From contig OW799234.1 of assembly GCA_941918925.1 (NCBI GenBank), forward strand, positions 95,335,978-95,399,977: a stretch of 64,000 nt of DNA, given 5' to 3'. Source of the DNA: Phyto melanocephala (taxonomy: Eukaryota; Arthropoda; Insecta; Diptera; Rhinophoridae). Both the position numbers and the translations under genes were made by a program. Positions 1,741-48,244 of the stretch are shown here, piece after piece (position 1 is the stretch's first letter; every line of letters starts with the position of its first letter). The notes below the pieces were generated by a model that was not told the DNA's origin, searched no databases, and saw only the letters and a program-made list of their open reading frames with translations.

Positions 1741-1746
1741 GAAGTA
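1741..1746. repeat. target-site duplication, left (GAAGTA)
   Basis: GAAGTA lies directly outside the left inverted repeat and recurs directly outside the right one at 9292-9297. A 6-bp duplication is the length Polinton/Maverick integrases make. Confidence 0.85.
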
Positions 1747-1780
1747 AGTAGTATATTTGTGGGCTTTCTGGGACACCAAA

Positions 1781-2010
1781 TTCATCCTTATGGAGATTGC
1801 ATGAGGATGAATTTTTGTTTTAAATTTTCATCCCAATGGTAATTTCCCATAAGGATGAATTTTTGTTAATAATTTAAAATATTCATCCCAATGGTAATTT
1901 CCATAAGGCTGATTTTTAATTTTTGGTTGATATGCATTTTGTTATTGGTTTGTTTGTCTCAAGTTTCAATTAAAATTTTTTTATTGTCTGCAATTTACTC
2001 ATACGGATGA
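1781..2010. repeat. iterated TTCATCC-type motif near the element terminus
   Basis: A 12-13 bp motif like TTCATCCTTATGG recurs in both orientations: forward at 1781, 1827 and 1882, reverse at about 1800, 1848 and 1902, with a weaker reverse copy at 2000. Opposed copies can pair into hairpins. The right terminus carries the same set. Clustered terminal repeats of this kind could be binding sites for an initiator, terminal protein or integrase; that role is inference. Confidence 0.55.
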
Positions 2011-2376
2011 TTTTTTTGTTGTTAAAATTTTTTTTAAAATTGTGTTGTTAAAATTTTTTTTTTAAATTGTAATATGAGAAAATGCAAAGGTAAATTATTA
2101 TTTGTAAATACATATATAAATACTTACATATATAAATATGTGCATACAAACTTACATGTTTTAGAAAATGTATGTGCAAAATTGTTTAAATAAGAATGTT
2201 AAGAGATGAATTTTCACAGATGAATAATTTAAGAGAAAATAATTTTTATTGAATGTAATTATAGTTTTCCATAAAGATGAATAATTAAAGAGAAAATGAT
2301 CGTTTGAGTGATTTTTATTAAAACAGTAAAGAGGGATTGAATAAAAAAATATATGGAAATAAACTCAAGATATACT

Positions 2377-2420
2377 TATATATAAAAGAACGATAATGAT
2401 AATATTTTTCCTCATTAGTC
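2377..2420 (+). promoter_or_regulatory. TATA box and initiator-like site, left copy
   Basis: TATATATAAAAG (2377-2388) is followed about 33 nt later by TCATTA (2413-2418), close to the arthropod initiator consensus TCAKTY. It lies roughly 40-70 bp upstream of the predicted first exon of the 100-residue protein gene. Confidence 0.5.
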
Positions 2421-2450
2421 TAATCAATACTTAAAAGTATGCTTAATAAA

Positions 2451-2812
2451 ATGGTAAGAAATCGCATCATATTTAGAAGTTTTTTCTAATTTTATTTAAA
2501 ATATTTTAGATGTATGATCAAATAATAAATATTGCCCAAGGTATAATACCTCAGTATACAAAAATTGATGATATCCCCCTACATCAACCATATAAAGTCC
2601 TAAGGTTTGAGTGGAAGGAATCACAATATGGATCAAAAGTCATAGCATATTTGGATAATAATAAATGGTTTTATCTTCCTCAAAGAATTACAAAATTTTT
2701 AAATAAAGAAGATCCATACTTATCTGAAATGAATGATAAAGTGTGGACAATTATTTACAAAGGTCGACAATCAGCAAATGGTTTAGCAGTATTTGAATTA
2801 AACTACATTTAA
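2451..2812 (+). CDS. 100-residue protein in left inverted repeat, unknown function
   Basis: The main open frame is 2510-2812. Its ATG directly follows a good splice acceptor (ATTTTAG), and 56 bp upstream there is ATG followed by GTAAGAAA. I therefore predict a first exon of just ATG (2451-2453), an intron at 2454-2509, and a second exon that supplies another ATG; either start gives almost the same protein. The product has alternating hydrophobic and charged segments suggesting a small beta-rich fold, with a YGSKVIAYLD segment and WFYLPQRI. I recall unnamed arthropod proteins with a similar FLP-x-R pattern but cannot verify a family. It has no signal peptide or membrane segment. An identical gene lies in the right repeat (8217-8578, minus), so the element is diploid for it. 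A nucleic-acid-binding or terminus-related role is only a guess. Confidence 0.65.
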
Positions 2813-3206
2813 GAATTTAAATGTTAAAAACCTCTACCATAAAGTAAATAAATAAAAATACATTTTTTTAATTTAAAAATATTAAATCATTTGTTTTATT
2901 TCTTTGTTTCTTAAAAATCTAAACTTAAGGCTAATAAGATTTGGTCACCATCCTCATCCATATACAGTATTCCCCACGAGTAACTAGAAATCGTAAAAAG
3001 TTAGATTATGAAACTGAAAATGTACAATGGCAAAATATTTAGAAAATAAAACACATTTAATAATTGAAAATATAAAGTTTGTTTATTATTGATAAAAAAA
3101 ATATAATTTCTTAAAATAAATAATTGCAATAGTTATAGTTTGTTTACATAAAAGTTTAATGTATTTAGAATTAATATACAACAATTATTATGGAATTTTG
3201 TATATT
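2813..3206. other. AT-rich spacer at inner edge of left repeat
   Basis: Downstream spacer between the left small gene and the end of the polymerase gene. It contains AATAAA-type polyadenylation signals on both strands (for example aataaaaataca near 2852) and the short minus-strand coding tail at 2911-2983. Confidence 0.5.
2911..2983 (-). pseudogene. acidic C-terminal exon-like fragment
   Basis: The inverted repeat carries the end of the zinc-finger gene, so at this end the same tail (MDEDGDQILLALSLDF, stop at 2911-2913) is read on the minus strand. Just upstream, outside the shared part, the frame stays open through SWGILY and is preceded by a plausible acceptor TTTCTAG ending at 2984. It could be a 3' exon of a transcript from inside the element, or only a by-product of repeat expansion. 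No matching donor was identified. Confidence 0.35.
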
Positions 3207-6200
3207 TTAATATTCTATTTCCATTAGAAATTTATCTAAACTATCATCATTATTAAAGCTCTCTATAATATAATTTTGATCTACAAATTCTACTTCATTA
3301 TCATTTATTTTACAGATATCTTTATCATTATTATATTCTATATCCATTAAATAATAATCATCACTATCATTATTAATAAATTTTTCTTTATAGTGACCCC
3401 AAGCTAGGGTATTAATGTTATTCACACATATAAATCTTTTATTATCTAAATAGCTTAAGGATATCTTGTTAATAAGGGATGTATATACAGTGTGTAGTTT
3501 TGATTTAAAAATATACATATTTCTATAGTAAATTTTTTTATTATATAAGCAATTTTTGTAGTCAGAAAGACTTAGTTTTTTTGTTACGTTCACTTTGACA
3601 CCCTTAGCTTTTTTAACTTCTTCCATATTTTCTGTTTTAAACGAATACATTTTCGCTCTCAACCCAACAAACTCTTTCATTATCTTCCCAAAATTTTCAT
3701 CTTTCATCATACCTAAGACCTTTTTGTTTTTTTGTGGAATATGAAATTGATTATTAGCCTCATATTCAGATGTGTCAAACCTATCTTCAATATCTTTTTT
3801 AATGTCTTCATAAAAGTCATCCGTTTCTATTGTGTATATAAATGAATCTGTATCCATATAATTAAGTTCAACTTTAGTTTTATATTTAGGTATCATATAT
3901 TCATAATGGAAATCATACATCTTCCATTTTGAAAGTTCTAAAATTGTAAAACCTAAATAAATTGGCTTATTATAGTATGAGTAAGTTCTATTTAATTCAA
4001 CCGCGATCATATTTTCTTCAAATATATTACAAGAATTAAATTCTGGCTTAGCAATGAGGGCACGTGCTCCAAGTTTTTTACCAATACTTTCCCATTTATT
4101 CACAATTTTAATATCTTTACGTTTATCAACGTTTTCCATTGTTTTACCGTAAACAGCATTGTTTAATAATTTAAAAAAATTTTTTTCAAATGAGTTTTTC
4201 GCATTAGTTCTATGAAAGTTATTCAAGGAAATATATTTCTTTAACCAATTGGATTGTCGAAACTTTAATATTCTATGAATTTTGGCTAACTTTAAACCAT
4301 GTTTTAAACATTGCTGCAAATTTTTATAATGAATTATATATTCATATTTATTATGTAGATCAACAATCAATTTTGTTTCTTTTGACTCGGGAGGTTTTTT
4401 ATTTTCACAACAGAATGGTAGATTATTATGAATGTCATGGATTTCAACTGGATATATCAAATCAACTTCTAATATATATCCAACACTTGAATCAGTGGGA
4501 ATTGAGTTCAAAGAAAAATTATTAATATCTTCTACCCACTCAAAATTACCCTCAGGCTGAGCTTCTGACATTGCCCAACCATATAAATTGTTTGCATCTA
4601 AATACATTAAGTATTTAGAAGGTAATTCATTATTATAGTCTGATAAATATTTATTATTTGCAATTGAATGTCTTTTTGTACATTGTACTATTCCTCCCCT
4701 AATCCCCCTTTGAATAAATGTTATCATGTCTTTATCAGTAAGTAAATCTAATTTAATATCCGTTATTTTTAGCATGGCATCCCATGAAAGTCCCGGAGCT
4801 GTGTAATAGTGACATGGATCTAATTGATAAATGTTTTTACAAACTGTTCTGAAATTCTCAAAAACATCTGCTAATAATAAAACATCCGTCTTTAAGTACA
4901 ACATTAAATAATCTTCTAAGTTTTTGCAATCGAAAGTTTTCCAAACTTCTTTCGCGTGTGTGTAATCTTCTAGAGAACATTGTGTATCTGTTAACTTATT
5001 ATAAAAATCTGCAATATTAGGTAAACTATTTTCCAAAAGCTTTTCAATAGAATTTAAATAATTATAAGGAAATACGCCTTTTCTTATAAGTAAATTTAAT
5101 TTACTTTCATCATTATACATAGATTTAACAGTCTTTAAATCTCTTTTTTCTAAATTTTTCACAAGATTGTCTAAACTGGATGGCATGAATCTATATGAGT
5201 CAAGAAATCTTATTTCAATGTTATTATCTTCAATTTTTACTGTTTTTGATAACGATATATAGAGTTCTTTATTTAAGGGGATAATATTAATTGAACCATC
5301 GTCAATTTTGTTCAACTCCTTAACAAATAAATGACAATCGTAAGATGAAAAGTTATGGAAAATAACGGGGAAAAACTTTGGAGTTTTATAATTGATATTA
5401 CATGAGTTATGTGCTGGCCCCCTATATTTTCCACTGAAATGACAGTGATCTCTTACTTTAACTTCATTTACAATAATTTTAGAGCAAATATGACAAATGT
5501 CATTTCTATCGAAATCAAGTTTTTCCAGTTCAGTTAAGGGTGTCATTGTTTTACTTTTTGAGATGAAATTTAAATATAAATATTTAACATCATTCACCAG
5601 ACTTTCTATAAATAATTTTGGTGACTCTAATCCCTTAAAACTGCAAAATTTGTTTAAACTATTACTAAAACTACATTTTATATAATAAGCAAATGCATAT
5701 GGAATATGTCTATCAACTAAAGTCGTTGATGAAATATCCCCTTTCGGAATGCATGTTTGAATATTTTCAAATATGCACTCCGAATCTGCATATATAACAA
5801 ACGGTAAGTCTAACTTATTGCTAAAATTGTTAAATTCTAAAACAGACTTATCTGGGCTTGGGACGTATGATATTCTTTTTGTGCAATTCTTCTGGTGTTT
5901 CTGAAGTTTCACTTTTTGATGAAAATACTGTAAACAATCATCACATACAAAAATACTTTCATGATGTCTTGTTTGTTGAGATTTAATAAGTCTGCAAAAA
6001 TTAGAATATAAATATATAAGTTTAACATATAAACTAAATAGAAAGAAATGTAGTACAAGATAAAAATAGCAATTTAAAGTAATTTTATGCACTTTTACTA
6101 ACCTTGAAATATTTTTAATCCACACATAATGTGAAACAACATCCTCTCCAATACATTTTTGAAGAAATAGAATGTTGATGTGCTTAATTTTTTTCGCTTT

Positions 6201-7061
6201 TGTTTTATAATAGGGACCCAATACTAAGTCCGCTTTTTCATCATAGCCAAAAACATTTATACTAATATTATGATTGTTGCTTTCAAATATTTTTATATCT
6301 TTAATTTTTAGCGGGAAGCTTAATCCGTTGAAATTTAAACTGTAACCATTTATATTTATAATATTAAAACTGATATTTACTTTATATTTAAAAGTGCGCT
6401 CTGCATGTGTTTTTAAATCTGAAATGGCTGATATTATGCACCATTTGAAACAAAATTCATCATTATTTTGTACATTTATGCAGGCCTTTTTTAATGTTAA
6501 TTTTTTCGGTAACGGAATGTATGATGTTCCTCTTAATGGTTGATGTTTATTTAAGTTGACTTCAATTTTAATGAGTTGTATAAGAGTCCAACCACTGTCC
6601 TTTTCCTGAAATTCCTCCATTTTCTGTAAAATATTTTGAGTTTTTCTCTCAAATAGATCATCAAACTCCTCCATGTTGAAAATTTCCTTCATTTTTGTTT
6701 GGAAGGTTTTCACTTCCAATGGAGTGTCTTCTAAGGTATCCATGTTAGGCTTGGCGTACAAGGCATAAAACTCCATATTAAATTTCAGGGCATTATGTAT
6801 TTTTAAAAATTTATTAACCTCCTGCTTAATTGGTGCGCAAGCCTCTTTCATAAATAGCTCTGGTAAGAGGCATTCTTCTTTTTTATTGTCATAAGTTAGA
6901 GTTAGCAATCTAGATTTAAAGGCACTTCTAATTATCTTCACATCTAATGGAGATTTTTTAGAAACCACTCCTTTTGAACAAGATGCATGAGTCCTCTCAT
7001 GCCTTTTAAGACTTTCGATATCACTAAAAATTGTTTTACATTCATAACACACAAAAGCCAT
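3207..7061 (-). CDS. protein-primed-type family B DNA polymerase with C2H2 and HNH-like insert
   Basis: The open frame is 1,284 residues, or 1,247 after removal of a predicted 111-bp in-frame intron (5992-6102). A C2H2 finger lies at residues 5-25 (C5, C8, H21, H25) and a second Cys/His cluster at 373-393. The exonuclease motifs are YADSEC (D426, E428), HNFSSYDCHLF (D575) and YLKTD (D726). Between the first two sits an endonuclease VII/HNH-like zinc module (C523, C526, DHCH 538-541, H551, C554). Polymerase motifs follow: YLDANNLYG (D822), the NNAVYGK region (967-973) and YMDTDS (D1070, D1072). All catalytic residues are present, so it may be active. It would copy the element, with priming at the termini inferred from family and long inverted repeats. 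It is divergently arranged with the zinc-finger gene at 7738. Start chosen at the only ATG before the finger. Confidence 0.9.
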   Translation of the reverse strand: MAFVCYECKTIFSDIESLKRHERTHASCSKGVVSKKSPLDVKIIRSAFKSRLLTLTYDNKKEECLLPELFMKEACAPIKQEVNKFLKIHNALKFNMEFYALYAKPNMDTLEDTPLEVKTFQTKMKEIFNMEEFDDLFERKTQNILQKMEEFQEKDSGWTLIQLIKIEVNLNKHQPLRGTSYIPLPKKLTLKKACINVQNNDEFCFKWCIISAISDLKTHAERTFKYKVNISFNIININGYSLNFNGLSFPLKIKDIKIFESNNHNISINVFGYDEKADLVLGPYYKTKAKKIKHINILFLQKCIGEDVVSHYVWIKNISRLVKVHKITLNCYFYLVLHFFLFSLYVKLIYLYSNFCRLIKSQQTRHHESIFVCDDCLQYFHQKVKLQKHQKNCTKRISYVPSPDKSVLEFNNFSNKLDLPFVIYADSECIFENIQTCIPKGDISSTTLVDRHIPYAFAYYIKCSFSNSLNKFCSFKGLESPKLFIESLVNDVKYLYLNFISKSKTMTPLTELEKLDFDRNDICHICSKIIVNEVKVRDHCHFSGKYRGPAHNSCNINYKTPKFFPVIFHNFSSYDCHLFVKELNKIDDGSINIIPLNKELYISLSKTVKIEDNNIEIRFLDSYRFMPSSLDNLVKNLEKRDLKTVKSMYNDESKLNLLIRKGVFPYNYLNSIEKLLENSLPNIADFYNKLTDTQCSLEDYTHAKEVWKTFDCKNLEDYLMLYLKTDVLLLADVFENFRTVCKNIYQLDPCHYYTAPGLSWDAMLKITDIKLDLLTDKDMITFIQRGIRGGIVQCTKRHSIANNKYLSDYNNELPSKYLMYLDANNLYGWAMSEAQPEGNFEWVEDINNFSLNSIPTDSSVGYILEVDLIYPVEIHDIHNNLPFCCENKKPPESKETKLIVDLHNKYEYIIHYKNLQQCLKHGLKLAKIHRILKFRQSNWLKKYISLNNFHRTNAKNSFEKNFFKLLNNAVYGKTMENVDKRKDIKIVNKWESIGKKLGARALIAKPEFNSCNIFEENMIAVELNRTYSYYNKPIYLGFTILELSKWKMYDFHYEYMIPKYKTKVELNYMDTDSFIYTIETDDFYEDIKKDIEDRFDTSEYEANNQFHIPQKNKKVLGMMKDENFGKIMKEFVGLRAKMYSFKTENMEEVKKAKGVKVNVTKKLSLSDYKNCLYNKKIYYRNMYIFKSKLHTVYTSLINKISLSYLDNKRFICVNNINTLAWGHYKEKFINNDSDDYYLMDIEYNNDKDICKINDNEVEFVDQNYIIESFNNDDSLDKFLMEIEY
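5992..6102 (-). other. predicted in-frame intron of the polymerase gene
   Basis: On the minus strand AAG is followed by GTTAGTAAAAG, and 111 bp later TTTTTGCAG precedes the next exon. The translated insert (about residues 321-357) is hydrophobic, Y/F/L-rich and unlike the flanking protein. Its length is a multiple of three without stops, so unspliced and spliced mRNAs both stay open. Confidence 0.7.
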
Positions 7062-7388
7062 TTTTATTTTAAGTTTTTCTTATTTTATTTAAAGAAGTTT
7101 AACAATTTGTTAACTTAATTTTAAATTACAGTTTATATTATTTGTTTTAGATTTACACACAAAATCTTTAATTTTTATACAGACAAATTGACCGATTACT
7201 TTAGTGAACAATACTATGAATTGCACTGGCTATTGCTTTTACTTATTTAAATATTAAATTCATATTTGGTTAGCTTTGTTCAAGGTCATTTTGAAATGTG
7301 TACTGTTGTTCTTTAAATTATTACATAATTATGCTTTTTAGTTTGTTGACTCTAATTATAAAATTCTTATGTCTATATATGTATGTAC

Positions 7389-7435
<47 letters not shown>

Positions 7436-7737
7436 TATATGTTAAATTCAAAGTTAAATTTACCTGAAATTAAAGTGGCGTTTTTATCGGATTCTATTTC
7501 AAAATATGCTTGGTTTATCATTTTTGAACGCAAATCAAATTGTTCGAAAAATATGAGGTGTTCTAATATATATACATAAAATTCTTATACAATATTATAT
7601 ATGTATGTATGCTAAAATCAAAGGCAATTTTAAAATTAAATTCGACGACTTCCTGGGATTATATTTCAAAATATGCTTTGTTTAAAATTATGAGGCTTTC
7701 TCAATAAATATTTTGAAAATAATTTTTAATTTAGAAA
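7062..7737. promoter_or_regulatory. divergent intergenic region with TA microsatellite
   Basis: The non-coding stretch between the polymerase start (minus) and the zinc-finger gene start (plus), so both promoters must lie here or further out. It contains an almost pure TA run at 7393-7440 that can form a hairpin. The 70- and 93-residue open frames over this run are products of the microsatellite. Confidence 0.5.
7393..7440. repeat. (TA)n microsatellite
   Basis: About 24 TA units with one interruption (ATACATATA), self-complementary, at the centre of the divergent intergenic region. Confidence 0.85.
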
Positions 7738-8118
7738 ATGGACTCAAAGTTAAAGTGCGAGTTTTGTCGCTATGTTTCTTTTTTAAATGTCGCAAACAAA
7801 AAAAGACATTTTTTAAATTTTCATAATTTTGCCTTTAAAAAGGCTAAAAGTTACAAAAAAATAAAACCATCCTCATATATAACAGATATATCAGGATGGC
7901 TACCAACAACATCACCCACATCAACAGCAGAACAATCAACAACATCATCAACTGCAGTGTCATCATCATATGAGCAATATATGGATGAGGATGGTGACCA
8001 AATCTTATTAGCCTTAAGTTTAGATTCAACAACATTATCAGCTGCACCATCATCATATGAGCAATATATGGATGAGGATGGTGACCAAATCTTATTAGCC
8101 TTAAGTTTAGATTTTTAA
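7738..8118 (+). CDS. small C2H2 zinc-finger protein with duplicated acidic tail
   Basis: A 126-residue protein. One zinc finger lies near the N-terminus (C7, C10, H24, H29; CEFCRY start) and is followed by a lysine-rich stretch (34-43) and a Ser/Thr-rich linker (about 57-76). A 21-residue acidic/hydrophobic unit, SSYEQYMDEDGDQILLALSL plus D, then occurs twice at residues 76-96 and 105-125. The second unit and the stop codon lie inside the right inverted repeat. The polymerase also begins with a C2H2 finger, so both proteins may bind the same DNA or each other. The tail looks like an activation or interaction segment; that is inference. I do not recognise a named family. The start is the first ATG, 20 bp after the last upstream AATAAA-like run. 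Confidence 0.7.
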   Translation: MDSKLKCEFCRYVSFLNVANKKRHFLNFHNFAFKKAKSYKKIKPSSYITDISGWLPTTSPTSTAEQSTTSSTAVSSSYEQYMDEDGDQILLALSLDSTTLSAAPSSYEQYMDEDGDQILLALSLDF

Positions 8119-8216
8119 GAAACAAAGAAATAAAACAAATGATTTAATATTTTTAAATTAAAAAAATGTATTTTTATTTATTTACTTTATGGTAGAGGTT
8201 TTTAACATTTAAATTC

Positions 8217-8578
8217 TTAAATGTAGTTTAATTCAAATACTGCTAAACCATTTGCTGATTGTCGACCTTTGTAAATAATTGTCCACACTTTATCATTCAT
8301 TTCAGATAAGTATGGATCTTCTTTATTTAAAAATTTTGTAATTCTTTGAGGAAGATAAAACCATTTATTATTATCCAAATATGCTATGACTTTTGATCCA
8401 TATTGTGATTCCTTCCACTCAAACCTTAGGACTTTATATGGTTGATGTAGGGGGATATCATCAATTTTTGTATACTGAGGTATTATACCTTGGGCAATAT
8501 TTATTATTTGATCATACATCTAAAATATTTTAAATAAAATTAGAAAAAACTTCTAAATATGATGCGATTTCTTACCAT
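8217..8578 (-). CDS. 100-residue protein in right inverted repeat, unknown function
   Basis: Mirror copy of the gene at 2451-2812, with an identical protein. The main exon is 8217-8519, the predicted intron 8520-8575 and the ATG exon 8576-8578. The identity, including intron and promoter, indicates that the two ends are kept identical by recent replication or gene conversion. Confidence 0.65.
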
Positions 8579-8608
8579 TTTATTAAGCATACTTTTAAGT
8601 ATTGATTA

Positions 8609-8652
8609 GACTAATGAGGAAAAATATTATCATTATCGTTCTTTTATATATA
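8609..8652 (-). promoter_or_regulatory. TATA box and initiator-like site, right copy
   Basis: Mirror of 2377-2420: TATATATAAAAG on the minus strand at 8652-8641, with the initiator-like TCATTA about 33 nt downstream. Confidence 0.5.
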
Positions 8653-9291
8653 AGTATATCTTGAGTTTATTTCCATATATTTTTTTATTCAATCCCTCTT
8701 TACTGTTTTAATAAAAATCACTCAAACGATCATTTTCTCTTTAATTATTCATTTAATTATTCTTTATGGAAAACTATAATTACATTCAATAAAAATTATT
8801 TTCTCTTAAATTATTCATCTGTGAAAATTCATCTCTTAACATTCTTATTTAAACAATTTTGCACATACATTTTCTAAAACATGTAAGTTTGTATGCACAT
8901 ATTTATATATGTAAGTATTTATATATGTATTTACAAATAATAATTTACCTTTGCATTTTCTCATATTACAATTTAAAAAAAAAATTTTAACAACACAATT
9001 TTAAAAAAAATTTTAACAACAAAAAAATCATCCGTATGAGTAAATTGCAGACAATAAAAAAATTTTAATTGAAACTTGAGACAAACAAACCAATAACAAA
9101 ATGCATATCAACCAAAAATTAAAAATCAGCCTTATGGAAATTACCATTGGGATGAATATTTTAAATTATTAACAAAAATTCATCCTTATGGGAAATTACC
9201 ATTGGGATGAAAATTTAAAACAAAAATTCATCCTCATGCAATCTCCATAAGGATGAATTTGGTGTCCCAGAAAGCCCACAAATATACTACT

Positions 9292-9297
9292 GAAGTA
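9292..9297. repeat. target-site duplication, right (GAAGTA)
   Basis: Exact match to 1741-1746, immediately outside the right inverted repeat. Confidence 0.85.
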
Positions 9298-9373
9298 AAA
9301 AAATATTTCCTAGAAATAATTTATATGGCAAGACAACGTTTGCTGGGCCAGCTATTTTTACTTTATATATTTA

Positions 9374-9493
9374 GGGCCGTATTCATAAAAAATATTTTAG
9401 GTTTATTGAAGGCTTATTTGACAAATTTCTCTACAACATCTGTTAAATAAGCCTTTAATAAGCCTGACATATTTTTTATGAATACAGCAGTTA
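9374..9493. mobile_element. palindromic MITE
   Basis: A roughly 120-bp fold-back sequence with arms running from GTATTCATAAAAAATAT inwards through AGGCTTATTTGACA and its reverse complement. ATATTTA occurs at both flanks (9367-9373 and 9494-9500), a possible 7-bp duplication, although in AT-rich DNA this could be chance. Two similar palindromes lie inside the Helitron (20671-20790, 24974-25090). Confidence 0.55.
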
Positions 9494-9500
9494 ATATTTA

Positions 9501-20657: not shown

Positions 20658-20840
20658 GTAAGACATTCATGGTCTAATTCATAAACGACTTTGAAATTTA
20701 TCATAGGTTTACAAATCAAATGTTATAAGTATTAAAATGTTGCTTTATAAACCTTTGATAAATTTAAAAGATGTTTATAAATTAGGCCTTAGATATATAT
20801 AAATCTATCATATAACCAAAATATTAAATTAAATTTTTAG
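20658..20840 (+). other. Helitron intron 1 carrying a MITE
   Basis: Donor TCAG/GTAAGA and acceptor ATTTTTAG/GAACG; splicing restores the frame across S-G-T. Of its 183 bp about 120 are the palindromic MITE at 20671-20790, leaving about 63 bp, the same as intron 2. Confidence 0.75.
20671..20790. mobile_element. palindromic MITE in Helitron intron
   Basis: Arms GGTCTAATTCATAAACGAC and GATGTTTATAAATTAGGCC are inverted relatives, with a long AAATTTATCA(A/T)AGGTTTA core in both. A second copy lies at 24974-25090. Confidence 0.6.
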
Positions 20841-21467
20841 GAACGAATGTGGATTCACAACATTTTCTTAGTAAAATAAGGAAATATAATTCGTCTTTCC
20901 AAATGACATCGTTTGGTGCTACCAAAGTAATTCGACACAATTTTATGACCACTTTTCGTGTTCAAGGTCAAATTTACCATAAAATGGGGTCATTGTTGCC
21001 AGTTCCAAATGAAGATCCTAAGTTCTTACAAATTTATTTCATAGGAGAAGCGGATAACAATGACCAAGTGCAACACCGACAGCATTATAACCCTGACACA
21101 AAACAATGGATAGTGGCCGAATTACAAGTGATGTTTCATGAACACAACGAATTAGTAAGGATCTTTAAGCAAGCCAAAGATGACCCACGATTGAGTTCAG
21201 ATGACCATATTATCGCTATTCATGCTGATAAAACACCATCTGGACAACACCAAGGACGATACAATGCACCTACAATGGATGACGTAGCCATTTTAATGGT
21301 AGGTGATCCAGTGGTACCACGAGATATAATTATTCGCCGCCGTAACGAAAGGATCAACAGGATAGCTGAAACTCATCGTTCGTATGATGCACTTCAGTAT
21401 CCAATTATTTTTCCATTTGGTGAAGATGGATATCACTTTGAATTACGGCAAATTAATCCAGAAACAA
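20841..21467 (+). CDS. Helitron gene exon 2
   Basis: The frame is open from the acceptor at 20841 to the donor at 21468 (AACA-A/GTAAGT). The translation (DSQHFLSKIRKYNSSFQMTS ... YDALQYPIIFPFGEDGYHF) is the conserved region that precedes the Helitron Rep domain in animal Helitrons, including the YPIIFPFGEDGY motif. It joins exon 1 and exon 3 in frame. No stop codons inside. Confidence 0.8.
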
Positions 21468-21530
21468 GTAAGTTCAGATTTTAAAATCTAATTTTATACT
21501 TTTTTTTATTTTGGCCTTTTTTACTTTTAG
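21468..21530 (+). other. Helitron intron 2
   Basis: A 63-bp intron, GTAAGTTC to TTACTTTTAG. Removal joins NPET to NESTRKKMSAMDFYAYRI in frame. Confidence 0.8.
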
Positions 21531-24500
21531 ATGAATCAACAAGGAAAAAAATGAGTGCAATGGATTTCTATGCATATCGAATAATGATACGTCAGAACTC
21601 CGTTAATCACATTCTAAATTGCCGCGAATTATTTCACCAGTATATTGTCGATATGTACGCGAAAATTGAAACGGAACGTCTATTATACATACGACTTAAC
21701 CAAGCAAAATTACGAGTGGATAACTATATTCATCTTCGGGATGCATTAAATAGCCATAATGACATCAATCCCACTGAAATTGGCCAAGCTATTATTCTTC
21801 CAGCAACATTTACTGGCAGCTCACGGCATATGCAGGAGTACTGTCAAGATGCAATGACATATGTTCGATCATATGGACGGCCAGATTTGTTCATTACATT
21901 TACCTGTAATCCAAAGTGGGATGAAATACTATCTGAATTGTCCACTGGTCAAACACCAATACATCGGCACGATATAACAGCACGCGTGTTTAAACAAAAA
22001 TTAAAATCCCTTATGGATTTTATTGTAAAATTTCATGTATTTGGAGAAACACGGTGCTGGATGTATTCCGTCGAGTGGCAGAAACGTGGATTGCCACATG
22101 CCCATATTCTCATTTGGTTGGTTGAAAAAATTACCCCAGATCTTATTGATGATATAATTTCTGCAGAGATACCCGATCCAAATGTTGATCCAAGCCTGTA
22201 CGAAATTGTTATCAAAAATATGATTCATGGTCCATGTGGAACCATTAATGCGAATTCTCCATGCATGGTGGATGGAAAATGCACAAAGAAATATCCACGG
22301 CAATTGATTCAAGAAACAATCTCGGGAAACGATGGCTACCCACTTTATCGTCGACGGTCTGTGGATAATAGTGGACGATCAATTTCAATTAAGGTACGTG
22401 GAAATGATGTTGATGTTGATAATCGGTGGATAGTACCTTACTGTCCATTGCTTTCAAGAACATTTAAAGCGCATATTAATGTAGAGTATTGTCATTCAGT
22501 AAAGTCTATCAAATACATCTGCAAATATGTTACTAAAGGGTCAGATATGGCTGTATTTTCATTACAAAATCCAAACGATGAAATTACGCAATATAAAATG
22601 GCCAGATACATCAGTAGCAATGAAGCAGTATGGCGAATTTTGGGATTTACAATTCATGAACGCCATCCAACTGTTGTTCATTTATCAGTGCACTTGGAAA
22701 ATGGACAACGTGTTTACTTTACAGAAAGAAATGCGCGGGAGAGAGCAACAGCACCCTCAGCTACAACATTACCATCTTCTTTTAATCTTTGCAGAAATGA
22801 TTTGTTTGCTAAAACATTGTTGTATTCCGAAATTCCAAGGTATTATACGTGGAACGCGTCATCAAAGAATTTTCAACGTCGTAAGCAAGGGAAACCTGTT
22901 GAAGGATGGCCAAATTTATATTCAACCGATGCATTGGGCAGGGTGTATACCGTCCATCCTCAAAATGCAGAATGCTTCTATTTAAGAATGCTTCTTATTA
23001 ATGTTCGGGGGCCAATATCTTTCGAGAACTTGCGTACTGTTGATGGGGAAGTATGTGCAACAAATCGTGAGGCCTGTCAGAAACTGCAGTTATTAGAGAA
23101 CGATTGTCATTGGGAAACAACGCTTGAAGATGCTTCAGTAATAAAACATCCATGGAAAATACGATCGCTATTTTCGATAATATTGGTATCGTGCTCACCT
23201 TCTAATCCAAAAGATCTTTGGCACAAATTTAAAACATATATGGCTGAAGATATTTTACACAGAGAGAGAGTTATCACCAATAATGCAACGCTTGAACTAA
23301 ATGAAACTATGTACAATGAGGTAATAATTTTACTGGAAGACAAATGTTTGGAGATAAAGAGTGTGACACTTATTGAAGTAGGAATGATAGCCCCAATCAG
23401 ATCAGGAACCCATGCAAACGATCAGGAACTACGACGTGAGAGAGACTATGATCACCAAAATTTGGAAAATTTACTAGAAGTAAATTTACCACATTTGCAA
23501 CAAGAGCAGAGTATTGTATACAATACTATAATGGCAGCAATAACAAACAAACATGGAGGCCTCTATTTTATTGACGCACCTGGAGGAACTGGAAAAACGT
23601 TTTTGATTTCATTAATATTAGCAAAAGTTCGTTCGGAAAAAAATATTGCATTAGCTATTGCATCATCCGGTATTGCAGCAACACTCTTAGACGGTGGTAG
23701 AACAGCACATTCTGCACTTAAATTACCCTTAAAGCCTCAATTTTCCGAAGACTACACATGCAACATAAAGAAAAATTCTTCAATGGGTAAAGTACTGCAA
23801 CAATGTGAAATCATAGTGTGGGATGAGTGCACAATGGCACATAAGAAATCTTTGGAAGCCCTTAATCGTACCTTACAGGATTTAAGAGGCAATAATAGAA
23901 TTTTTGGAGGTGCCTTAGTTTTGCTGGCTGGCGATTTCCGCCAAACACTTCCTGTTATACCGGGATCAACACCAGCTGATGAGCTAAATGCGTGTCTGAA
24001 ATCATCACACCTTTGGCAATATGTTCACAGTTTAAAACTTACGACTAATAGGCGTGTTCAGTTGCAACGTGATGCTTCAGCTACAACTTTTTCCAAACAA
24101 TTACTTGATTTAGGTAACGGGAGAATTCCAATGGATCCTACAACGAAATATATAAGTTTTCCATCTGACTTTTGCAGGATGACACAATCTATAGAAGAGT
24201 TAATAAATTGTGTTTTTCCCAACATCGGACAAAATTTTAAAAACAATGAATGGTTATGTGAACGTGCGCTATTGGCAGCCAAAAATATTGACGTTAATTC
24301 CATCAACAGCAAAATTTTGAACAAAATCGATGGTGACCTGAAAACTTATAAATCGATAGACACAGTAACAAATATTGAGGATGTCGTGAATTATCCAGTT
24401 GAATTTTTAAATTCGCTGGATTTACCGGGTTTTCCACCAAATGATTTACGGTTGAAAATTGGTGTTCCCATAATTTTACTCAGGAACATTGATCCGCCTC

Positions 24501-24862
24501 GACTTTGTAATGGTACTCGACTTACAGTAAAAAAATTAATGAACAATTTAATCGAGGCGACCATTATTACTGGAAAGTTTAAGGGAACTGATGTATTGTT
24601 GCCACGTATTCCCATGACAACATCGGAAATGCTATTCGATTTTAAGCGCTTGCAGTTTCCTATTCGCCTAGCATTTGCAATGACCATAAACAAAGCTCAA
24701 GGTCAGTCCCTGCAAGTTTGTGATCTTCACCTAGAAAATCCATGTTTCTCACATGGACAGCTTTACGTTGCATGTTCGCGAGTTGGAAAACCCGCAGATC
24801 TCTCTGTGTATGCACCAGGTGGAAAAACCAAAAACATCGTTTATCCTAAGGCATTAGAATAA
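21531..24862 (+). CDS. Helitron gene exon 3: Rep and Pif1-type helicase
   Basis: Uninterrupted to the stop; numbering here is from the ATG at 21551 (1,103 residues). The Helitron-like N domain begins at residue 1 (DFYAYR). The Rep nuclease shows TFTCNPKW (116-123), the HUH motif PHAHIL (H183, H185) and the two-tyrosine motif KYICKY (Y322, Y326). The SF1B/Pif1-type helicase shows Walker A APGGTGKT (676-683), Walker B WDEC (757-760), GDFRQTLP (794-801), TNRR (about 832-835), INKAQGQS (1046-1053) and YVACSR (1072-1077). All catalytic residues I can identify are present. The protein nicks and unwinds Helitron DNA for rolling-circle transposition. If the N-terminal lesions are tolerated or bypassed, the enzymatic part could be functional. 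Confidence 0.92.
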
Positions 24863-46270: not shown

Positions 46271-48244
46271 ACATACACATGTAGGGGGAATATCGAAGCA
46301 GACCACTACTATCACGGGTCCCTTTTCGACCCCCTTCGCTCCTCAGTGATTTCGTGTCTACCGATCAGTATACCTTCAATCACTGAGTCCCGCGCCACAA
46401 CCGGCGTTTGCTCTGGACTAGGAAAACGATTTCACACTGCCGACTGGTGATTGTCGAGAATCCTCATCGCACAGTCCTTTGTAATCGCCAGCATCTCCCT
46501 CAGACTAAGGTCCCCCATCGCACTCACACTTAAAGTGTGCTTGCCTGTGATCCTTAATCTTCCGCTTGCCAACGCCGGACACTCGCATACTACATGCGCT
46601 GCCGTCTCGGCATCCTCCAGGAACATTCTACAAATATCATCATCCACGATTTGCATCCTCTTAAGATGATATTTGAAGTTACCATGTCCTGTAATCAACG
46701 CAGTGATCCAGCTCATCATACTCCGATTAAAACCGAGTATCTTCACTGCACCCCTGCCAAGTGGCTCCCTGAGCACCATACGGGCCTGTCTACACGTGGT
46801 TCCCTCCATCCACCTTCGCAAGTTTATAGAGTTCACCCATTGAAAGATCCTCGCCCGCACTAACCCATTACCCAGAGCAGTTCTGGGTTCCGGTCCGCAG
46901 AATGCAGCCTGCATCGTGTCTACCGATCAGTATACCTTCAATCACTGAGTCCCGCGCCACAACCGGCGTTTGCTCTGGACTAGGAAAACGATTTCACACT
47001 GCCGACTGGTGATTGTCGAGAATCCTCATCGCACAGTCCTTTGTAATCGCCAGCATCTCCCTCAGACTAAGGTCCCCCATCGCACTCACACTTAAAGTGT
47101 GCTTGCCTGTGATCCTTAATCTTCCGCTTGCCAACGCCGGACACTCGCATACTACATGCGCTGCCGTCTCGGCATCCTCCAGGAACATTCTACAAATATC
47201 ATCATCCACGATTTGCATCCTCTTAAGATGATATTTGAAGTTACCATGTCCTGTAATCAACGCAGTGATCCAGCTCATCATACTCCGATTAAAACCGAGT
47301 ATCTTCACTGCACCCCTGCCAAGTGGCTCCCTGAGCACCATACGGGCCTGTCTACACGTGGTTCCCTCCATCCACCTTCGCAAGTTTATAGAGTTCACCC
47401 ATTGAAAGATCCTCGCCCGCACTAACCCATTACCCAGAGCAGTTCTGGGTTCCGGTCCGCAGAATGCAGCCTCAGACCCCTTCCTCGCAAGTTCGTCAGC
47501 AGCCTCATTCCCAGCTATGCCCACGTGTCCCTTAACCCACATCAGCGTTACCTCATTTGTAGAGGCACACCTATTGAGCTTTAGAACACACTCAAGCACC
47601 AAAGAGGAGTTCACATCTATCCGCTGCATACGTTTTATAACCGACTGGTTGTCAAGTGCAATAAGAATTCTCTTCCCATACATTCGACATTCCAACAGGT
47701 GGTCCAACGCGTGCAGCAAACCAAGCATTTCTGCCTGATAGACTGACACGTACTCCCCCAGATTCAGGGTGCAGGATAAGTTCAACTCAGATGAGTACAC
47801 ACCAGCACCTGCCCTTCCGTCCATAAAGGACCCATCAGTAAAGATACTGATGTCATTCTCCATGCACTCATCGTGCATGAATCCATCCGCTATAAGCGTG
47901 TGATGTAGCCTTTCGACCACCTTCACTCGACTCATGCGCTCCATCGGCATCTGAGCCTCCCTAACCTCTTTATCCACGAGGTCCAGGATTCTCCTATGCC
48001 CCAAAACCGATCCAAAGCGATACCACATGCCATCGCTTCGCATCCGAATCGCCGATCTTGCCGCCGTCTCCCTTACAAATAAGTCCAACGGCAGCAATCC
48101 CAGCATTGCCTCCATCGCTTGCGTTGGTGTGGTACGTATCGCGCCACATATACCAATGCAAGCAATCCTTTGAACCCCGTCCAACTTCCGCCTAATCGTC
48201 GCCTGGGAGGCCTTCGGCCACCAGACAACAGATGCGTAAGTGAT
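46271..48244 (-). mobile_element. 5'-truncated non-LTR retrotransposon with duplicated 3' part
   Basis: Inserted in family A: CACCT occurs at both edges (46266-46270 and 48245-48249) and removing the insert joins the repeat. Its coding strand is minus. Only the end of the reverse transcriptase and the RNase H and C-terminal regions remain. Unlike its surroundings it is GC-balanced. The 3' end has no poly-A and finishes TACATGTGTATGT. A 558-bp part is present twice in tandem (46353-46910 and 46915-47472). Confidence 0.8.
46353..46910 (-). repeat. tandem duplicate of retrotransposon 3' region, copy a
   Basis: Identical as far as I can read to 46915-47472, offset 562 bp, with the 4-bp filler GCAT at the joint. 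It encodes the last 157 or so residues again (AAFCGPEPRTALG... to the stop near 46432) behind a chance start codon. Confidence 0.85.

Follow-up and report, generated by a model that had tools for sequence, protein, structure and literature searches.

Introduction

Copy-back defective genomes of linear viruses carry one end twice in inverted orientation and have lost other genes. Among insect Polintons (also termed Mavericks or polintoviruses), Sf-RVN Mavericks 1 and 2 from Spodoptera cells encode ATP, INT, CAP, PRO and a POLB with a weak Endonuclease VII match, as given in the available part of their description (PMC5803895). Here we report on a 7.5-kb element at positions 1747..9291 of a 64,000-nt stretch of Phyto melanocephala contig OW799234.1; this whole stretch is called the window, and all positions without a contig label refer to it. 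An initial annotation interpreted the element (hereafter the 7.5-kb copy) as a minimal virion-less element using a helper integrase, or as a separate lineage of PolB elements. Comparison with the genome (740 Mb in 9 contigs, labelled C1, C2 and so on) indicates instead that it is very probably a defective derivative of an abundant and young family of 13.9-kb Polintons in the same genome, for which we could observe parentage, gene loss, duplication of one end, a single junction and a target duplication around the rearranged copy.

Ends and full-length relatives of the 7.5-kb copy

The 7.5-kb copy is flanked on both sides by GAAGTA (1741..1746 and 9292..9297), an exact 6-bp target-site duplication, and both of its ends begin with AGTAGTATATTTG, giving 5'-AG termini in long inverted repeats. 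Comparison of the left arm (1747..2964, 1,218 bp) with the right arm, which is the native zinc-finger end (8065..9291, 1,227 bp), revealed no mismatches and one 9-bp indel. Only the right arm has the extra 9 bp; the left arm and 18 of 18 loci of other copies show the state without them.

Near each end lies the same gene of 100 amino acids, which had 151 matches in the genome. Among the 150 matches listed there were 14 inverted pairs within 20 kb, that of the 7.5-kb copy included, and interior sequence was taken for 11 of the 13 other pairs. Two of these 11 interiors, C2:40814254-40826886 and C2:22167991-22180563, contain the full gene set, with some genes broken, in the order ZnF-PolB-O171-O114-ATPase-INT-P303-P145-MCP-PRO-O91-O95, and a 4.7-kb core of the 7.5-kb copy is 97.7% (window 2961-7684) and 99.1% (2958-7684) identical to the two copies. 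Pfam matches in the relatives comprise Pox_A32 for the ATPase (1.8e-5), rve for the integrase (1.2e-14) and Peptidase_C5 for the protease (6e-7). The capsid protein had no Pfam match and a PDB sequence search found no capsid; a 91%-identical homologue modelled from a 43-sequence alignment (predicted local distance difference test, pLDDT, 85) matched the capsid proteins of Sputnik (E 2.4e-14), PBCV-1 and mavirus by structure comparison, and on this model the MCP of the family is a predicted double-jelly-roll capsid protein. When compared with these family genes, the region 1747-9291 yielded no integrase, ATPase, cysteine protease or capsid protein.

Perfect copies of the 100-amino-acid gene are present at 20 loci, 19 of which are zinc-finger ends followed by the zinc-finger open reading frame (ORF) and PolB, the exception being the left arm of the 7.5-kb copy. 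One of the 19 is the right end of the 7.5-kb copy and 18 belong to other copies. A relative read at both ends (L005+L042) is 13,860 bp long, has GTAAAC on both sides and a terminal inverted repeat (TIR) of 630 bp (99.84% identical), and bears the 100-amino-acid gene at one end only, with the capsid and protease genes at the other. The native TIR also ends at 630 bp in four more copies (far ends of L012, L015, L017 and L020). For the other 17 copies, a stretch of about 1.2 kb at the expected position of the far end was read for span and ends; the far terminus was found in 16 of the 17, with spans of 13,750-13,975 bp and an exact target duplication in 14. The duplication of L014 matches at five of six bases, L004 has no match and the terminus of L020 falls outside the stretch read. 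Overall, 17 of the 18 copies checked span 13.75-13.98 kb and 15 of the 18 have exact 6-bp duplications, all 15 different, indicating that GAAGTA around the 7.5-kb copy is no chance match. The 6-bp duplication, AG ends and 1.2-kb inverted repeats described in the initial annotation are confirmed, as are the Polinton-type termini and PolB (AG ends, GAAGTA and polymerase motif strings), and its suggestion of recent mobility agrees with arms free of substitutions and many near-identical relatives with different target duplications.

Searching with the C-terminal part of PolB (440 amino acids) identified 96 places in the genome, of which 47, the 7.5-kb copy included, score within 3.2 bits of perfect, and the PolB of other copies is 99-100% identical. 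This part of the 7.5-kb copy is 100% identical to C2:44841851, which lies inside the 13,860-bp element. The integrase search returned 128 places, and many integrase genes of the family have an open frame. An integrase is located within 6 kb on the same strand at 61 of the 68 PolB places typed. The seven counted as lacking one include the 7.5-kb copy; C3:53253264, with a broken integrase; C3:42724807, for which a 71% integrase match was left out of the count; C5:100168851, a simple deletion in which O171 runs into the protease gene; and C4:101119133, with none of the family's genes within 2.3 kb after PolB.

A single junction with one end duplicated

The left arm comprises the native TIR (outer ~630 bp, 1747-2376) and a further ~588 bp extra to it, an inverted copy of the zinc-finger end that includes, as its innermost part, 51 bp of the zinc-finger gene (2914..2964, minus strand; tblastn 100% to residues 110-126). 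At 2964..2965 this tail meets O171 at codon 147; the O171 ORF sits between PolB and O114/ATPase in full-length relatives, and here its last 25 codons and stop are left (2965..3042, plus strand). Two features had escaped the initial annotation: the inner left arm duplicates the far end and contains part of the zinc-finger gene, and a second Polinton ORF has left its tail at 2965-3042. No bases are shared at the exact break (2964/2965), and TAT adjoins the break on both sides.

The junction 80-mer has one full match in the genome, an outcome that the initial annotation had named beforehand as refuting its interpretation, and its halves match apart elsewhere (scoring covered the best 40 of 201 candidates and gave 55 listed rows), lying on opposite strands and ~5 kb apart in the copies listed with both halves. 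Because the 80-mer matched in full once while its halves occur apart, the sequence comparison indicates that, once in this assembly, one end was lost with the structural genes and an inverted copy of the other took its place. Standard copies bear inverted repeats of ~630 bp and the 100-amino-acid gene at one end, so the 7.5-kb copy is not a plain deletion, and a simple internal deletion was rejected as its origin given the excessive length of the left arm and the foreign tail. The initial annotation had envisaged full-length relatives from which such a simple deletion would explain the copy; relatives encoding integrase, ATPase, protease and capsid protein do exist, but the route from them is a deletion combined with an inverted end duplication.

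Other rearranged copies in the genome

Four other copies with the 100-amino-acid gene at both ends carry exact target duplications, their lengths being 12,379 bp (duplication TATATC), 12,380 bp (ACTGTG), 8,296 bp (GAGAAT) and 10,112 bp (TTTGTC). The 12,379-bp and 12,380-bp copies are the same palindromic form, 99.93% identical over 9,953 bp, with inner arms of 100% and 99.89% identity. In each of these four copies (L023, L037, L031 and L032), both ends consist of the outer part of the zinc-finger end joined to the inside of the capsid end, at capsid-end position 2533 of L042 in the first three and at 2467 in L032. The capsid-side genes are doubled in L023, L037 and L032, L031 doubling flanking sequence only, and PolB is gone from all four except for a fragment in L032. 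In the 7.5-kb copy, L031 and L032, the zinc-finger tail breaks off no more than 2 bp from a common spot (CCATAT), each time for a different partner, and TAT precedes each acceptor. A further end extension is seen in the full-length copy at C2:40814254, in which the capsid-end TIR is 1,067 bp and reaches the stop of the 100-amino-acid gene.

Several additional copies are worth recording in their own right. L079 (G000:C1:85945000-85952000) forms a palindrome around a 73-nt centre, its arms reaching at least 2,903 bp at 99.97% identity and each bearing integrase, P303 and ATPase genes. Five long palindromic copies (L024, L025/L026, L029/L030, L033/L034 and L038/L039) form a diverged branch (100-amino-acid gene 93-95% identical) with a 118-amino-acid ORF and inner arms of 4.0-5.6 kb that are 99.4-99.98% identical. 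The family's PolB, integrase and capsid genes were not found in these five, nor was the end motif by which a target duplication would be read; in all but L033/L034, the two arms of a copy resemble each other more closely than one copy resembles another. In L078 (G000:C5:66694810-66702343) the ATPase, O114 and O171 are 96-97% identical to the main family and the adjoining integrase 98%, as against 40-56% for PolB and 61% for the zinc-finger ORF, a pattern suggestive of a recent exchange of PolB modules between Polintons.

Origin of the 7.5-kb copy

We propose that a linear copy, replicated from its ends by its own PolB, would have undergone a snap-back (copy-back) switch onto the complementary strand, so that one end was copied twice. 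The half with the ATPase, integrase, capsid and protease genes would have been lost and its end replaced, inside O171, by the inverted zinc-finger end, the replacing piece being the TIR, the 100-amino-acid gene and 51 bp of the zinc-finger gene. The shortened molecule would then have been inserted by integrase from full-length copies; such a helper integrase is conceivable for the 7.5-kb copy given the open integrase genes of the family in this genome. We regard snap-back switching during end-primed replication, followed by insertion with a supplied integrase, as the somewhat better explanation of the junction.

A less probable though serious alternative is that a 13.9-kb copy inserted first, broke, and was repaired in place, with inward copying that started at the opposite TIR and with end joining. 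The two termini are intact, as is the target duplication, the junction is single-copy and no base is shared exactly at it, all of which repair in place would accommodate. It is less readily reconciled with the 12.38-kb palindromic form, whose presence at two sites with different duplications means that a rearranged molecule can precede insertion and that end-duplicated derivatives can be mobile. Comparing junctions across the rearranged copies left the odds between snap-back copying and repair in place unaltered.

A number of observations weigh against snap-back copying of a PolB-replicated molecule. With a junction that occurs once, nothing in the 7.5-kb copy places the rearrangement before insertion, and chromosomal repair is another possible source of palindromes and of inverted end duplications. 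That Polintons replicate by protein priming is accepted on the strength of PolB homology, and not from the data here. The PolB of the 7.5-kb copy did not match PF03175 in Pfam (2 of 14 aligned sequences did), and a PDB sequence search with it found no polymerase, its profile retrieving zinc fingers only. L031 could be a ~57-bp deletion of an L023/L037-type junction; if it is such a later small deletion, the shared break spot perhaps does not reflect three independent switches. At 25% GC, moreover, TAT occurs frequently in this AT-rich element.

An assembly artefact fusing two repeat copies is highly improbable: many near-identical copies make mis-joins possible, but the identical 6-bp duplication on both sides speaks against one, and the 9-bp insertion private to the right arm speaks against a duplicated assembly stretch. 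Less credible still is a minimal autonomous or satellite PolB lineage without a capsid, which the open PolB, ends, target duplication and open family integrases would suit, but which is contradicted by the single junction, by complete identity with a full-length copy over the C-terminal part of PolB and by the broken pieces of O171 and the zinc-finger gene inside. The minimal virion-less element as a kind is thus refuted in this assembly, full-length relatives being 97.7-100% identical over the shared part, and the separate PolB lineage gained no support, as several copies of the same capsid-less structure were sought and the junction was found once.

Snap-back copying also permits a wider and, in our view, doubtful reading, in which the genome holds a defective-genome-like Polinton population arising from switches that favour one site within the zinc-finger tail, some members multiplying as satellites of the full-length element, and with junctions that record linear end-primed replication in an animal. 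It would be made up of two complementary sorts, one with the PolB end doubled (the 7.5-kb copy) and one with the capsid end doubled, with integrase and without a whole PolB (at least four copies). If true, the family would behave as a partly multipartite, helper-dependent system. As a probable defective member of the known Polinton/Maverick kind, the 7.5-kb copy removes a candidate new lineage, and cautions that a target duplication, ends and an open polymerase are by themselves no evidence of an autonomous kind. Derivative junctions within one genome may allow the Polinton replication route, long inferred from PolB homology, to be read.

Gene content and neighbouring features

The PolB gene is an open frame of 1,284 codons (3207..7061, minus strand) with polymerase and exonuclease motif strings, the initial annotation having described intact PolB motifs. 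An Endonuclease VII-like stretch (E 1.1e-4) and a C2H2-like stretch at the N-terminus both fall just below the Pfam cut-off; C and H motifs are visible by eye in the N-terminal part, where the PolB of adintoviruses bears an OTU-like domain, and the OTU family had no match in the Pfam results. An in-frame, intron-like insert of 111 nt (5992..6102, minus strand; GTTAGT...TTTTTGCAG, with GTTAGT...GCAG ends) is absent from all 13 other aligned protein records, several of which come from spliced gene models. In a protein search with PolB, 7,747 of 7,985 scored candidates passed; among the 120 listed, identity was 45-77% and named matches were insects, the top one being Calliphora vicina (77%). IMG/VR contigs gave no match with the single PolB query or with the terminal protein. 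Two distant IMG/VR PolB contigs were retrieved with an alignment query; one ORF from each gave a weak match or none to the capsid profile (E 0.018 and 0.17), and the contigs were not used.

The 126-amino-acid zinc-finger-like ORF (7738..8118, plus strand) runs with its 3' part into the right arm and an 87-bp tandem duplication. The reported zinc-finger protein stands as an ORF with a visible CxxC...H...H pattern, from which the putative label derives; no convincing Pfam match was found for it (best E 0.047). The tandem duplication itself (91%, window 7940-8113) straddles the inner edge of the right arm. A terminal gene at each end, also noted initially, was recovered as the same 100-amino-acid ORF at 2510..2812 (plus strand, left copy) and 8217..8519 (minus strand, native copy); its protein had two homologues only among 5.8 billion proteins searched, and its predicted structure (pLDDT 43) supports no fold claim.

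Just outside the 7.5-kb copy, a 63-nt inverted repeat (83%) at 9364-9500 is possibly a small foldback repeat. Elsewhere, the window contains a Helitron at 20828-24862 with Helitron_like_N and PIF1 helicase domains in a 1,125-amino-acid open frame (21485-24862), upstream of which a further open frame reads like its start. An exact 300-nt direct repeat with a spacing of 562 nt is located at 46352-47213, where an RNase H-bearing (non-LTR-like) frame ends.

Comparison with known systems

The 7.5-kb copy shares with Polintons/Mavericks the 6-bp target duplication, AG ends, TIRs and PolB, and its parents additionally share an rve integrase (with a weak chromodomain match), an A32-like ATPase, an adenain-like protease and a double-jelly-roll capsid protein. 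It differs in that all but PolB and small ORFs has been lost and one end is duplicated. Judged by sequence, it qualifies as a non-autonomous Polinton derivative, having ends and interior in common with a complete family whose other genes it is missing. The parent family matches Sf-RVN Mavericks 1 and 2, which have a larger gene set and for which the available part of the source describes no end duplication (PMC5803895). The alpha-class adintoviruses, as far as the accessible text goes, have an insect-associated PolB and integrase as in the parent family, which resembles them (PMC11071296). Besides the OTU-like domain, adintoviruses are recognized by a hexon with BLAST similarity to the reference members; for the parent family, a double-jelly-roll fold of the capsid protein was predicted. 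The closest analogy may be with the copy-back defective genomes of linear viruses, which resemble the 7.5-kb copy in the inverted doubled end and the loss of genes, and differ from it in that the forms described here are chromosomal insertions of a transposon.

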